Positions 59,400 through 64,000 of a DNA stretch of 64,000 nt are shown here, in pieces (within the stretch, counting starts at the first letter, position 1; every line of letters begins with the position of its first letter). A program made the translations under genes and the position numbers. The stretch is from assembly GCA_905221615.1 (NCBI GenBank), contig CAJNDT010004635.1, positions 163,321-227,320 of the forward strand, in the 5' to 3' direction. The notes under the pieces are model-generated. The model made no database searches. It saw only the letters and a list, made by a program, of their open reading frames with translations, and had not been told where the DNA came from. The DNA comes from Symbiodinium sp. CCMP2592 (taxonomy: Eukaryota > Sar > Dinophyceae > Suessiales > Symbiodiniaceae).

Positions 59400-59882
59400 T
59401 TGGAGTAGTGCTAGTACTAGTAAGCGTTCGTACCAGTCGTCATCGTCGTCGGCTCCGTCACAACAAGTCGTAGGATTGCTCGCACATTCGAAGCAGTGAT
59501 TCAACAAGGTTAATGTGCCAATAGTAAAGTAGGTATCAAATAATAACGAAAATAGGAATAGTAGTAATTAACCAAAATTTTAATAGTAGTGGAAGCACAT
59601 GTAACAGTAGTACTCACAGATAGTACTGGCCATAATCCCGCTCTTGAGCGCGGGGCTGCTCCGGCGGTACCCTGTGATGTGGCTTGGCTGCCTGCCAGCA
59701 AGGGATTTTAAGAACCCTAGACCCTACCTTACTAGCTGTCAATTTCAAGAGTCCGCAAAACTATTCGTAATTAGGGCTCTAGATTAATAAACAATACGGG
59801 AAAGTAGAAATTATCCCGAATCAATACCCAGCTTAGGCTACCATAACCCGTATTTGTTGGGCCCATATGCTCCAATATTGGT

Positions 59883-60045
59883 TGGAATCAATCGCGATTG
59901 ATTTTTTCAAGCGCCGATTGAAACGAGGCCAAAATCAATCGCAGAGAGGCTTTTTTCAATAGCGACAAAATCAATCGCAGAGTGTCGTTAAAATCAATAG
60001 AAAAATCAAGCGTGGAATCAATAGAAAAATCAATCGCGGAAGTGT
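59883..60045. repeat. Degenerate AAAATCAATCGC-type short tandem repeats
   Basis: The words AATCAATCGC and AATCAATAGAAAAATCAA recur at least six times with small changes. An open frame across them is compositionally poor and is not called as coding. Confidence 0.6.
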
Positions 60046-60137
60046 GTTTTAGGCACTCCCATGTGTGCAAAAACACCATATATCTATTATCTCTTCTGCC
60101 ATTTACAGGATGTACTTTTCAGCATTTTCGTGAGTTC

Positions 60138-60182
60138 ATAAATATACATAAATATACATATATATATATATACGTATGTATG

Positions 60183-60272
<90 letters not shown>

Positions 60273-60305
60273 TATATACATATACATATATACATATATA
60301 CATAC
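60138..60305. repeat. (TA)n/ACATA tract
   Basis: About 165 bp of TA with CATA interruptions, just left of the first hairpin copy. Confidence 0.95.
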
Positions 60306-60319
60306 AGCTACATATGTCG

Positions 60320-60656
60320 TGTCTATCCAGACACTGTGAAGAATCGGCAAAGTCCTATCATCAAACACGGACACTCAAAGCTATATAGTACGTACATGAA
60401 TTTAGGGTTTGGGCTTAGGGTTCAGGGTTTAGGTTGTCTATCCAGACACTAGGACCAAGCGACATGTCTATCCAGACACTGCCCTGCCCTGCCCCCTGCC
60501 CCCTGCCCCCTGCCCCCTGCCCCCTGCCCCCTGCCCCCTGCCCCCCTGCCCCCCTGACCCCTAGTGCAGACAAGTTGCGGTGGCTGCGGCGGTACCTGCA
60601 TTGTCTATCCAGACACTGAAATAAAAAGTTTAAGACTATATATGTCTATCCAGACA
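60320..60656. repeat. Five copies of the TGTCTATCCAGACA hairpin downstream of the transposase-like gene
   Basis: Identical 14-mers occur at 60320-60333, 60435-60448, 60465-60478, 60602-60615 and 60643-60656. Each folds as a 5-bp stem (TGTCT/AGACA) with a 4-nt ATCC loop. The first has a sixth G-C pair. All five are followed by CT. The last lies 24 nt past the stop codon of the minus-strand gene. On that strand the sequence reads TGTCTGGATAGACA. Confidence 0.9.
60479..60563 (+). repeat. (CTGCCCC)n heptamer minisatellite
   Basis: About ten CTGCCCC or CTGCCCCC units in tandem, C-rich on plus and G-rich on minus. The array begins immediately after the third hairpin copy and ends 39 bp before the fourth. 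G-runs on the minus strand could form a quadruplex. Confidence 0.9.
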
Positions 60657-60680
60657 CTGGGTTTGCAGAACCCTTCTTTT

Positions 60681-62673
60681 TTAGTCCTCCGGCTTCTCAG
60701 TGTCGAAGTCCAACAAGCCCTTTAAGAGCAAGTGAAAAGCCAGGCTAAACTTTTGAAGCACCTTTCCCACAACCTGGTAGCTGGCAGTTCCACGAGAGCA
60801 GCTTGCAGTCACAGCTTTCACAATCGCCAGGTACGACTCAGGGCCATAGCACCAAACACATCTCGGCGTCAGATATTTTGACTGCTGCCCGAAGTGGTAA
60901 AAGAGGTGGAACTTCTGGGTGATGCTGTATTTCAGAAGCTTCCTCTTCAATGCATCTTTCGCCAGGAAATGATAGTGGGACAAGGTTCCTTGCACTGCAT
61001 CTTCGAAAACTGTGAAATCCTTTGAAGAAAAAACCCATTTCTTCTCATCTGCCATGCTGTACACTTTGTCCAAACACTCCACACAAGCTTTTCTGTGCAT
61101 AGATCTCGTAGACGAGTCATCACTATATTCCGTGGCCAACCGTACAGCTACTGGCGAAAACTTCCGAACAGTCCTGCCTTTGATGTGCTTCAAAGTCGGG
61201 TATCCAGTGTCTGCCATCAAATTGCTTCGCAGCAATTTCGGAAACCGTTCAGCCGTCGGTATCTCCAGGTCTTCATATATCTGCGAAATTTTCGGGTTCA
61301 AGACTTTCAACCTGGCCTCCAAGCTGCTCCCTGGCAGTGTATCCAAAATGTCGCACAGCAGGTTTGCAAAGATGTGGCAAGAAATGCCAAGATCCATCAA
61401 ATGCAACAGATCCAGTTTGACCGTCCAGAAGCCGACCCCCGGAACACTCCAGAGGTGGTGCTGCCTCAGGTCCTCAGCTCGAGGGTTCAATAGTGTGGAT
61501 CTCCAAGCAGCCTGTGGTCGCAGATCGTTGAATGGATGCGTGTTCTTGCTCTCGTCGAAAAAATTGGTGCATTCGCAATAAGGACATGGGTCATTCCGAG
61601 CACTAGTGGGCCAGCCAAACTGAGAACAGAAAAATTCGAGGTCGCCGCTGACGGACATAATAATACATCGTCTTCTCGCTTTGCCTTGAATGCAGTGACA
61701 GGGAGTATGGTTGATATATAGTATCTCCATAATGACCTACTAGATACAGTCACCAAATGTCAAAAGCAAGCCTATAACTATACACTCACCAAAACGAAAA
61801 TCCTAATTCATACATGGGTTTGGGTGGGATCGTGGTGTTCGGTGCGGTCTGTCGTGTCTTTCCAGACATGGAAAACGATCCCAGTCAGGCCAACTATTGT
61901 TTAAAACAAGATGATATCTTCGAATATATAATAACAGCTCCTGGTTTCTGCAAGATGCTCTTTCCAGCGGCGAGCTTCTTGAAGGACTCCGACAGTTCCT
62001 TCCAGATTGGGTCCCAAGTTCTGTCCCAGTCCTCAGTGGCGTTCTTCGGCATGTTCACCAGCATAAGCTGCGAAAACTGCACACTCACATTGCTCACCAT
62101 GCATCGCATCGATATTGCCATCGTGGAGTCAGTCTCCGAATATGGAGCTGCGTCTCCGTGAAGCACGAGTGGGATAGGGGCCTCTGCCTGGAAATCTATG
62201 GCCTTCCAGTACTTTGTATCCTGGCGGAACTGAGGGTTTTCTTTCCAGAGCTGCTTGCTCCAGAATTTCCGGATTTCTGCTTCGGGAGCCATGACTGTTT
62301 CCAAAAACCCATGCTCAGAGAGCTGGTCGATCCAGGCATGGGGCAAGTTCACAGGGATGTCCTTCTCCATCATCTTCTTCTCACCATTCAACTCCCTGAC
62401 CAGAACAGGTGTTCTGATGCTGGTGCTTTCTGGGGAGCACATGTTCTTGAAGATCCACCTGGAAATGTCTCTGTGGCAGTTCTGTGGCGATTCACCATGG
62501 GCTCCTAAGGCCTGCAGTTTCAGCAAGTCTTCTGCTGAGCTTCCAGATTTCACCGCACAGTCTGCAAACTCCTGAATTTCTGAAGCAGACAGCTTGCCCA
62601 GTGCAAAATGCCTCACGAGCATCAAAAAAAGCGGCGAGTGCGGCTCATGGCTGGTTTTTTGTTTCTTGCCCAT
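60681..62673 (-). CDS. Transposase-like protein (RNase H-fold DDE type suspected), two exons
   Basis: Two long minus-strand frames (62673 to about 61919, and about 61647 to 60681) fit as one gene of roughly 570 residues interrupted by an intron. Exon 1 carries LHGDAAPYSETDS. Exon 2 carries GDLEFFCSQFGWP, a CPYC pair, LDLLHLMDLGISCHIFANLL and later WCYGPESY. The order HGD ... GDLE/CxxC ... DLLHxMDLG ... E resembles the D-D-E layout with an internal Cys pair seen in CACTA/EnSpm and KDZ-type transposases, and matches my memory of a large dinoflagellate-specific protein family. That assignment is inference, not a database match. Start: ATG at 62673, 25 nt after a CATTTCAG that could be a spliced-leader acceptor. 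The stop is TAA at 60681-60683. No terminal inverted repeats were found, so it may be domesticated or degenerate. Covarying hairpins flank it. Confidence 0.7.
61648..61918 (-). other. Probable intron of the transposase-like gene
   Basis: Both flanking frames close inside this stretch. The pair of sites that joins them in frame (SN-GDLE) is a GA donor at 61918 and a GTCAG acceptor at 61648, giving 271 nt. Other donors, such as a GT a few codons upstream, and an acceptor at 61737 remain possible. One hairpin of the TGTCT/AGACA family lies inside at 61855-61868. Confidence 0.45.
61855..61868. repeat. Hairpin copy with TTCC loop inside the probable intron
   Basis: TGTCTTTCCAGACA has the same stem as the downstream cluster, with one loop change. 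It lies 25 nt past the stop that ends the exon-1 frame. Confidence 0.8.
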
Positions 62674-62727
62674 TGTGCTATTCCGGGTTCTAGGGGACCT
62701 GAAATGGGCTGCGGTGCATGACAGGGT

Positions 62728-62743
62728 GATCAGGGCCCTGATC
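62728..62743. repeat. Perfect 16-bp palindrome
   Basis: GATCAGGGCCCTGATC is its own reverse complement. It lies about 55 bp upstream of the ATG of the transposase-like gene, between two hairpin groups. It could be a protein-binding site or a cruciform; function unknown. Confidence 0.6.
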
Positions 62744-62772
62744 CCTGCAGCATATATCTGTAAACAAAAGCT

Positions 62773-62853
62773 TGCCTATCCAGGCATGTGCAACAGCTTG
62801 CCTATCCAGGCATGCACAACACAAGTGGCGTGCACAACCTGCCTGTCCAGGCA
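62773..62853. repeat. Three TGCCT/AGGCA hairpins upstream of the transposase-like gene
   Basis: TGCCTATCCAGGCA at 62773-62786 and 62799-62812, and TGCCTGTCCAGGCA at 62840-62853. Compared with TGTCT...AGACA, the third stem pair is C-G instead of T-A, so both arms changed together and pairing is kept. Confidence 0.88.
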
Positions 62854-62941
62854 TTCAAAGCATTGCAAAGCAGCACACACACACACACTCTCTTTTTCAC
62901 TCGCGGGGCTCCACCCCTCGTTGTGCCATTCGGCGATCCTT

Positions 62942-62959
62942 TCATGCAATTTTGCATGA
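62942..62959. repeat. TCATGCA/TGCATGA hairpin
   Basis: A 7-bp stem with an ATTT loop in the region between the two right-hand genes. It lacks the CT-ATCC-AG core, so it is kept separate from the main hairpin family. Confidence 0.55.
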
Positions 62960-63119
62960 GGATGCAAAAGTTCAGTCCTACAGAGGCTGGGCACCTTTTA
63001 GCCAGCAACATCATTATGATCTACATTCATCAACATCACAGCTGCTAGAAACTCCACAAAACAACACTCCTCAACATCTGCATTCGCTAGCTATCATCAT
63101 CTCCTACCGGTGCCACTGC

Positions 63120-63136
63120 TAGCCTCATCCAGGCTA
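63120..63136. repeat. TAGCCT/AGGCTA hairpin in the 3' flank of the K/E-rich gene
   Basis: TAGCCTCATCCAGGCTA has a 6-bp stem and a loop ending in ATCC. It starts 12 nt after the TAA at 63149. It is related to the other hairpins by the shared CT/ATCC/AG core but has a different outer stem. Confidence 0.7.
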
Positions 63137-63148
63137 CAAGGTTTGAAG

Positions 63149-64000
63149 TTAAAAACCAGCTGCCTCCACAAGTCCATCTTTCACTTTAGCGAGATCATTC
63201 AGCTCCAGGAGCTTCGATGCCTCCTGCAAACAGACAAGAGTTTGGAAGCATAACTGTCAAAGGCAATTAAGAGGCAAGCCTTCTTCAAGTCTTTTCCTTC
63301 ACTAGTCTGCTGCTTGCTTGGCTTTCTTGGCCTTCTTCAAAGCTTCAAGGGCCTCGAGCAGAGCAGCTTTCACTTCAGCTTTGTCTTCCTTCTTGTCCTC
63401 GATGTTCTTCAAGGCCTTGTCGATCTTCTTCTGTGCCATCTGCGCTTTCGTTCTTGCTGTCTTCAGAAACTTGCTCTGGTCTTCGTCCTCAGCTGTCGAC
63501 ACCAACTTCTGCAAGACAGTCTCTTCCTTTCCCAGGGCTTCCTTGAAGCTCAGAAGCTTCTCAAAGAACTGCTGCTTGCCGTCGTTGTCCTCCAAGCGGG
63601 ACTTGGTGTCCCAGTCCTCGTCTTTCTTCCCTTTTTTGGACCCAGAAGCCTTGCTGTCTGCGTTTCGCGACTTCGTCTTCACCTTCTTGGCAGGGGCTTC
63701 CGAGCTTCCGGACTCTTGCTCTGAGTCCTCCTCTTCCTCTGAGTCTTCCTCCTCCTGCGAGGACTCTTTTGCCTTCTTCTTCTTGTCCGGGCCACCAAGC
63801 AAAGCTTTCAGTTCCGGTTCCACGTCCATGCTCTTGAAGCACGACGGAGTCAGTCCAGCGAGGTCCATGTCTTGCAGGTCTACCAAAGCCTTCGAGTCTG
63901 TCTTCTTTCCAGAGCTCTTGACGACCACTCCCTTCTCTCTGGCGAAGGAGGCTCTTGTCACTTCTGTCATGTCCAAGAACTCTAAGAACCTCGAGTCGGA
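63149..64000 (-). CDS. Lys/Glu-rich charged protein, 3' part (5' end outside window)
   Basis: The frame is open to the right edge, so the gene is 5'-partial. An ATG at 63968-63970 is internal because the frame continues upstream with no stop. The main exon (about 63314-64000) reads as a highly charged protein: three basic clusters (PDKKKKAK, PAKKVKTK, GSKKGKKDED) that could be nuclear-localisation signals, an acidic stretch of E, D and S, then a long K/E/A-rich region likely to form a coiled coil. Read straight through, it stops at 63302-63304. A better end is a second exon at 63149-63223 after a TTTGCAG acceptor, coding EASKLLELNDLAKVKDGLVE and ending in TAA. A GC donor at 63313 keeps phase 0 and gives a 90-nt GC-AG intron, typical of dinoflagellates. 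No catalytic domain is recognised. Chromatin or nucleolar roles are only a guess from composition. It lies directly upstream of the transposase-like gene, same strand. Confidence 0.75.
63224..63313 (-). other. Probable 90-nt GC-AG intron
   Basis: On the minus strand it begins GCAGCAGAC and ends TCTGTTTGCAG. Removing it replaces the stop at 63302 with a 24-codon C-terminal extension in the same phase. GC donors are common in dinoflagellate introns. Confidence 0.55.

Follow-up and report, generated by a model that had tools for sequence, protein, structure and literature searches.

Constrained hairpins with a near-fixed loop and matching arms are internal parts of a dinoflagellate superfamily of terminal-inverted-repeat DNA transposons

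We analysed a window of 64,000 nucleotides from the dinoflagellate Symbiodinium sp. CCMP2592 (C4634:163321-227320), the right-hand end of which holds two minus-strand genes, ten short hairpins in and around them and, enclosing all of these, the left part of a DNA transposon with terminal inverted repeats (TIRs). The genome assembly contains 429 exact copies of the dinoflagellate spliced leader (reversed control 0), in keeping with a dinoflagellate host. A sequence-only reading of the window had described the hairpins as a covarying family. All ten were located (Table 1), the reported distances of 12 and 24 nt from the two stop codons are correct, and one copy does lie in the probable intron. 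Searching the 1.098-Gb assembly, with reversed-pattern controls for pattern counts throughout, we found thousands of copies, largely inside this transposon family. The hairpins belong to the interior of large TIR DNA transposons, where they occupy noncoding sequence on a single strand, and purifying constraint acts on their letters. These transposons form a superfamily of at least four subfamilies: A, the window element; B, represented by locus L027; C, represented by L028; and D.

Read in the sense of the genes, the hairpins have the form stem-CU-GGA-(0-2 nt)-AG-stem. The earlier description of the inner bases was right about CT and AG, which are near-invariant, and wrong about an ATCC-like loop, which is instead zero to two free bases followed by TCC. 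At 62773, 62799 and 62840 the letters read TGCCT, then A, A and G, respectively, then TCCAGGCA. With a stem of at least 5, the core CTNTCCAG occurs nine times in the window, always within 60320-62853, and a pattern scan of the 59.9 kb to the left of this cluster returned none. Between the hairpins of the left cluster, at 60391-60434 and 60485-60560, are degenerate TTTAGGG-like repeats and a CCCCTG minisatellite.

Table 1. Features of the transposon and its hairpins in the window (hairpin sequences in gene sense)
Feature	Position	Strand	Remark
DNA transposon of subfamily A, left part	59862..64000	- (genes)	abrupt start of homology and matching right end; continues beyond the window to C4634:236096
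Left terminal inverted repeat CCCATATGCTCCAATATTGGTT	59862..59883	+	ATCAATCG-type subterminal repeats next to it; such ends number 52 genome-wide (control 0)
Hairpin TGTCT-GGAT-AGACA (TGTCTATCCAGACA)	60320..60333	-	downstream of P0002 gene
Hairpin TGTCT-GGAT-AGACA (TGTCTATCCAGACA)	60435..60448	-
Hairpin TGTCT-GGAT-AGACA (TGTCTATCCAGACA)	60465..60478	-
Hairpin TGTCT-GGAT-AGACA (TGTCTATCCAGACA)	60602..60615	-
Hairpin TGTCT-GGAT-AGACA (TGTCTATCCAGACA)	60643..60656	-	24 nt past the stop at 60681
P0002 gene, probable large exon, 349 aa	60681..61730	-	at least 121 matching places in the genome
Hairpin TGTCT-GGAA-AGACA (TGTCTTTCCAGACA)	61855..61868	-	in the probable intron of the P0002 gene
P0002 gene, probable upstream exon, 259-aa frame	61894..62673	-	homologous order in subfamily D
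Hairpin TGCCT-GGAT-AGGCA	62773..62786	-	upstream of P0002 gene
Hairpin TGCCT-GGAT-AGGCA	62799..62812	-
Hairpin TGCCT-GGAC-AGGCA	62840..62853	-
Hairpin TAGCCT-GGATG-AGGCTA (TAGCCTCATCCAGGCTA; 5-nt loop)	63120..63136	-	12 nt past the stop at 63149
Lysine-rich gene	63149..64000	-	last exon about 63149-63223 (by eye); larger exon from 63302, running off the window

The transposon is delimited by its homology and its ends. Alignments between the window and copies on other contigs begin at 59862 and run rightwards, with none before it; the terminal inverted repeat is CCCATATGCTCC, and the mate end of the window copy lies at C4634:236096. Across the genome, 34 of the 52 subfamily A ends form 17 pairs 3.2-18.3 kb apart (ten at 12.5-12.9 kb, six at 3.2-3.7 kb and one at 18.3 kb), with 18 ends unpaired at that range. 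Because each of the five long copies fetched contains an N run of 5,000, the true element length is uncertain. Target duplications of 2 bp (TA, TA, TC, CA, AT, CT and CT) match in seven of the eight copies for which both flanks were seen. The flanks of the window copy are unmatched (GG/TA) and its right flank is identical to that of the C752 copy, so an assembly join is possible there. Two proteins, each with at least 121 genome matches, mark the element: P0001, a 378-aa lysine-rich protein (L010:735-1868), and P0002, which is transposase-like by context only. A P0002 place lies within 25 kb of 69 of the 106 P0001 places, on the same strand in 69 of 69 cases and downstream in 64; some of the five other arrangements point to a neighbouring element.

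Hairpin placement followed the genes closely. In 12 loci, some of which are copies of the same elements, 254 of 255 hairpins lay on one strand relative to the element genes, and only one fell in coding sequence recognised by the element proteins (49.6 expected), a chance-looking case in L045. Among the 100 sites listed of the 214 genomic TGTCTATCCAGACA copies, 82 had a P0001 or P0002 match no more than 15 kb away (such neighbourhoods together cover at most 0.44% of the genome), and each of the 82 reads GGA in the direction of the genes; these co-localisation counts used all 121 + 121 P0001 and P0002 matches, with split matches merged. Five of the 18 remaining listed places are enclosed by the paired ends of short copies (C158, C1014, C1112, C1569 and C2113). 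For D, 22 of the 31 array places compared were within 20 kb of a gene match, 21 of them in gene sense. The suggested link to the transposase-like gene thus holds more strongly than first proposed, the hairpins being internal parts of the transposon. The proposal of a tiny mobile palindrome found no support in three copy pairs: none showed a 14-nt empty site, and hairpins were gained and lost mainly as array units, otherwise in larger indels. As a separate observation, two adjacent hairpins at C136:755655-755682 lie on the strand opposite to their neighbours.

These placements also bear on a role as 3'-end or processing signals, in which each hairpin would mark a cut or polyadenylation point. 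Hairpin-directed polyadenylation is described for mimivirus, whose palindromes have no conserved letters according to the available excerpt of PMC4402537, and the hairpins resemble those palindromes in standing close after stop codons, as two do in the window. Moreover, an array sits just downstream of the P0001 gene in A, B and C, starting about 95-125 nt past its stop, although further off in D. Against such signals, copies are also found in the probable intron (61855), in stretches upstream of P0002 (62773-62853) and in arrays; the longest array, downstream of P0001 in L010, has about 13 copies spaced 27-28 nt apart. The hairpin core, unlike the mimivirus palindromes, is near-fixed. We therefore regard 3'-end marking, one of the roles proposed in the sequence-only reading, as unlikely in general and at best part of the answer.

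Genome-wide, the arms vary together around a constant core. We counted 214 copies of TGTCTATCCAGACA (control 4) and 231 of TGCCTATCCAGGCA (control 4); with mixed arms counted in, TGYCTNTCCAGRCA gave 3075 (control 43). The pattern TGYCTATCCAGRCA, which leaves the first pair free, matched 451 sites (control 8), of which 214 carry T-A, 231 C-G and 6 a mixed pair. Matching arms therefore outnumber mixed ones by 445 to 6, and the expected excess of compensatory over single-arm differences is present across the genome. A further pattern, AGTCTGTCCAGACW, matched 218 sites (control 20) and was paired in 97 of the 100 listed. Subfamily D has its own form, AGGGCTTCCAGCCCT, with its own arm set and a 3-nt loop (428 copies, control 0); in the D array the arms are AGGG/CCCT and the loop is TCC without the extra base. 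Even within the single element of L027, TGT, TGC and AGT arms occur side by side, yet are hardly ever mixed within one site. The reversed-pattern controls rule out a chance origin. Simple local duplication was also rejected: the same kind of hairpin is found across the genome, and is common to four subfamilies with proteins only 34-46% identical.

Two anchored tests separated core from arms. When the search was anchored on paired TGY...RCA arms in distinct sites of 13 loci, the core was exact in 135, had one mismatch in 7 and two in none, with a chance tail of 54 sites at 3-7 mismatches. The inner CT/AG pairs are thus near-fixed and show no covariation themselves. Anchored on the core with arms left free, all three outer pairs formed in 166 of 199 distinct sites, against a mean of 66.7 and a maximum of 85 in 2000 shuffles; with look-alikes collapsed, 56 of 83 sites were fully paired (shuffle mean 17.6, maximum 27). 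The first pair was T-A in 131 of the core-anchored sites, C-G in 46 and G-C in 2, and the third T-A in 153, A-T in 14 and G-C in 4.

This arm matching speaks to a second alternative, that the hairpin is a directional site in double-stranded DNA where a dimeric protein of the element binds, in the manner of an internal enhancer or of the repeats that CACTA elements carry. In its favour, the site is nearly palindromic and recurs many times in a DNA transposon. Such a site is disfavoured because a dimer on fixed half-sites should accept mixed arms, as in TGTCT...AGGCA, yet these are almost absent (6/451). The spacing of the half-sites also changes, from 4 in most A-C copies to 3 in the D array, and the element already has a separate subterminal repeat, ATCAATCG. 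We consider a double-stranded site decidedly unlikely. The ATCAATCG-type motif is found at both ends of the element (window 59889-60040; right end in L010), apart from the hairpins, and may be the putative binding site of the transposase itself.

Comparison of B (L027) with C (L028) revealed constraint on the hairpin letters. Substitutions affected 7 of 322 hairpin positions (2.2%), compared with 38 of 315 in the 7-nt flanks (12%), 307 of 2635 in other noncoding sequence and 169 of 1299 in P0001 coding sequence (13%). This roughly fivefold lower rate than in the flanks, together with the arm matching above, bears out the earlier suggestion that the fold is selected. Of 23 hairpins compared between B and C, 17 were identical, three faced gaps and one had a loop-base change; of the remaining two, one had changed both arms and a loop base and still pairs (TGCCTGTCCAGGCA to TGTCTATCCAGACA), and one was broken in a weaker alignment.

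A non-autonomous family of short relatives, 3.2-3.7 kb long with both ends, accompanies the long copies (L022, L051, L052; C1014, C2113, C3829). The three short copies read have 2-bp duplications and 15-17 hairpins each, and gave no tblastn match to six element proteins. Comparison of L017 with L022 (1/252 in hairpins, against 182/1999) first looked like hairpin conservation in gene-less copies. The short copies differ from one another at 0.4-0.7% of noncoding positions and at 0-3 of 221-238 hairpin sites, and are too alike for the test to decide anything on a role in cis. They are relevant to a third alternative, a hairpin formed in single-stranded DNA or a cruciform for replication, excision or integration: a folded single strand is indicated, and the C158, C1112 and C1569 copies, without recognisable genes, keep both ends and 15-17 one-strand hairpins. 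Their likeness leaves selection invisible and may reflect a single founder, while the TIRs and 2-bp duplications fit ordinary cut-and-paste transposition, for which we know of no required single-stranded stage. We rate a DNA hairpin as very unlikely. Template switching in imperfect palindromes, which copies arm onto arm and would yield double changes like the compensated B-C hairpin without selection, is most improbable, as it leaves unexplained the near-fixed core, the fivefold lower B-C substitution rate and the near-absence from coding sequence.

Our favoured explanation, to which we give rather better than even weight, is that the hairpins serve as repeated docking sites in the element's RNA for a putative loop-reading RNA-binding protein. 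Since arm letters are fairly free while pairing is kept and the loop is fixed, what is recognised would be a single strand folded into a fixed loop and a stem that pairs but is otherwise fairly free. RNA is the simplest candidate for that strand because genes and hairpins share one direction, coding sequence is avoided and cut-and-paste transposition is not known to need a single strand. The docking sites would then lie on untranslated and intronic parts of element transcripts, and their mixed locations are easier to reconcile with many docking sites than with a single cut in each gene. The binder could be the element's own lysine-rich P0001 protein, a guess prompted by its basic composition, its recurrence and the adjoining array; alternatively, it could be a Smaug/Vts1-type host protein. 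Binding might tag the RNA of the element itself, with effects on stability, translation, export or feedback control.

Several observations weigh against docking sites on RNA. The one-strand placement would equally follow if the element is simply a single unit with its genes on one strand. Pair 2 is nearly invariant (G-C in 173 of 177 paired sites) and hence uninformative, and exactly one outer pair is broken in 7 of 199 sites, a number too small for wobble pairs to distinguish RNA from single-stranded DNA. In the D copy read, only five of eight array units have a stem of at least 5. Six hairpins folded singly were weak (-5.4 to -15.1 kcal/mol, z 0.07 to -2.03). Outside the elements, a mixed-arm form with loop C, TGTCTCTCCAGGCA, is scattered (six of the first 100 TGYCTNTCCAGRCA sites listed: C1:2537469, C3:1294075, C8:338758, C16:95631, C27:292385 and C27:304095), perhaps as part of another repeat. 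Indels between B and C spare no hairpins (0.062, against 0.073 in flanks, 0.044 in noncoding sequence and 0.021 in the P0001 gene), and between A and A' the hairpins changed hardly more slowly than coding sequence (hairpins 2/169, noncoding 66/1462, coding 41/2526). The single compensated hairpin, in three B-C comparisons, stands against two one-arm or other changes in L027/L028 and one in L009/L017; double changes from copy to copy thus do not outnumber single ones, and the evidence for covariation comes from older differences between sites. Finally, L047 (C1047:38000-42000) encodes a P0001 homologue but contains no core hairpin within the 4 kb examined, and is possibly an outgroup without the hairpin system.

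The closest known counterpart of the proposed docking site is the Smaug/Vts1 recognition element, a CNGG loop extending up to CNGGN4 on a stem with free letters, as given in the excerpt available of PMC4053848. Both have CNGG at the 5' side of the loop, the gene-sense core here being CUGGANAG (CUGGAAG in the D array); both have a stem that is paired and non-specific in its letters, though pair 2 hardly varies here; and the border between fixed and covarying positions falls just before the C of CUGG. The Smaug loop is free in its 3' part (N0-4), whereas here the 3' AG is near-fixed, with only 7 of 142 sites of at most one core mismatch departing anywhere in the core. The likeness is one of sequence and pairing, and the present hairpins stand in transposon arrays.

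Other systems compare less closely. The short palindromic repeats of Volvox carteri share with our hairpins short folds in intergenic and intronic DNA with loops usually of 3-5 nt; as described in the part of PMC2670323 available, they are mainly organellar, average about 50 nt, often have TAAA/TTTA loops, and their nuclear copies, many with mismatched stems, are judged inert. CACTA/EnSpm transposons are large elements with TIRs, very short duplications and several genes; the TIR here starts CCC rather than CACTA, and the PF02992 domain is absent at the listed P0002 places. The histone mRNA stem-loop also stands soon after a stop codon; Rfam gave no match over the gathering threshold in L009, L010, L018 and L028 (40,000 bases). 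No such element is described in the titles and abstract beginnings of the open-licence papers searched. Binding sites consisting of a loop on a free stem are already known; their conservation as arrays in a DNA transposon superfamily is new to us.

The motif is clean: its arms match almost perfectly, its core of seven letters is near-fixed and a gene next to it is a candidate partner. It offers a testable case of a structured RNA, or other folded strand, under selection inside a DNA transposon. It also provides a handle on an unclassified, many-copy superfamily in a dinoflagellate genome; dinoflagellates are said to control their genes chiefly at the post-transcriptional and translational levels (PMC12787238, in the excerpt available). 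As a tentative extension, on the doubtful side, the superfamily may label its RNA with an address code of its own, in which a basic protein encoded by the element binds the tens of hairpins, all with the same loop, that each element spreads over noncoding transcript regions. If so, the element would form an RNA-protein particle or self-recognition mark, with arms free to drift while pairing and each subfamily keeping its own dialect. Such particles and marks are familiar from RNA phages and retroelements; we know of no such RNA mark for cut-and-paste DNA transposons.

As for the genes themselves, the proteins of A are 34-42% (P0001) and 44-46% (P0002) identical to those of other subfamilies, with P0001 of D compared over residues 1-148 only. 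The window's 259-aa frame and 349-aa frame probably belong, as two exons, to a single gene, because by eye the matching stretch continues in subfamily D. Neither protein has a Pfam or NCBIfam match over the cut-off, weaker ones aside. A search of the PDB with the P0001 alignment returned nothing and one with P0002 gave only weak Mdm2 matches (E 0.1-0.22); P0002, the only protein searched against viral_contigs, had no relative there. Transposase_21 was rejected as an identity for P0002, PF02992 matching no listed P0002 place and giving one weak hit elsewhere in the genome (E 0.2, below the cut-off). A single-sequence AlphaFold model of P0002 (mean pLDDT 35.7) was unusable and was not used. Within the matched stretch, most P0002 homologues in B have one in-frame TAG and those in D one TAA, uniformly across copies, perhaps where an intron is read through. 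Beside the C1 copy, a 1150-aa frame (L013:4309-7758) resembles, by eye, a LINE-type endonuclease protein.

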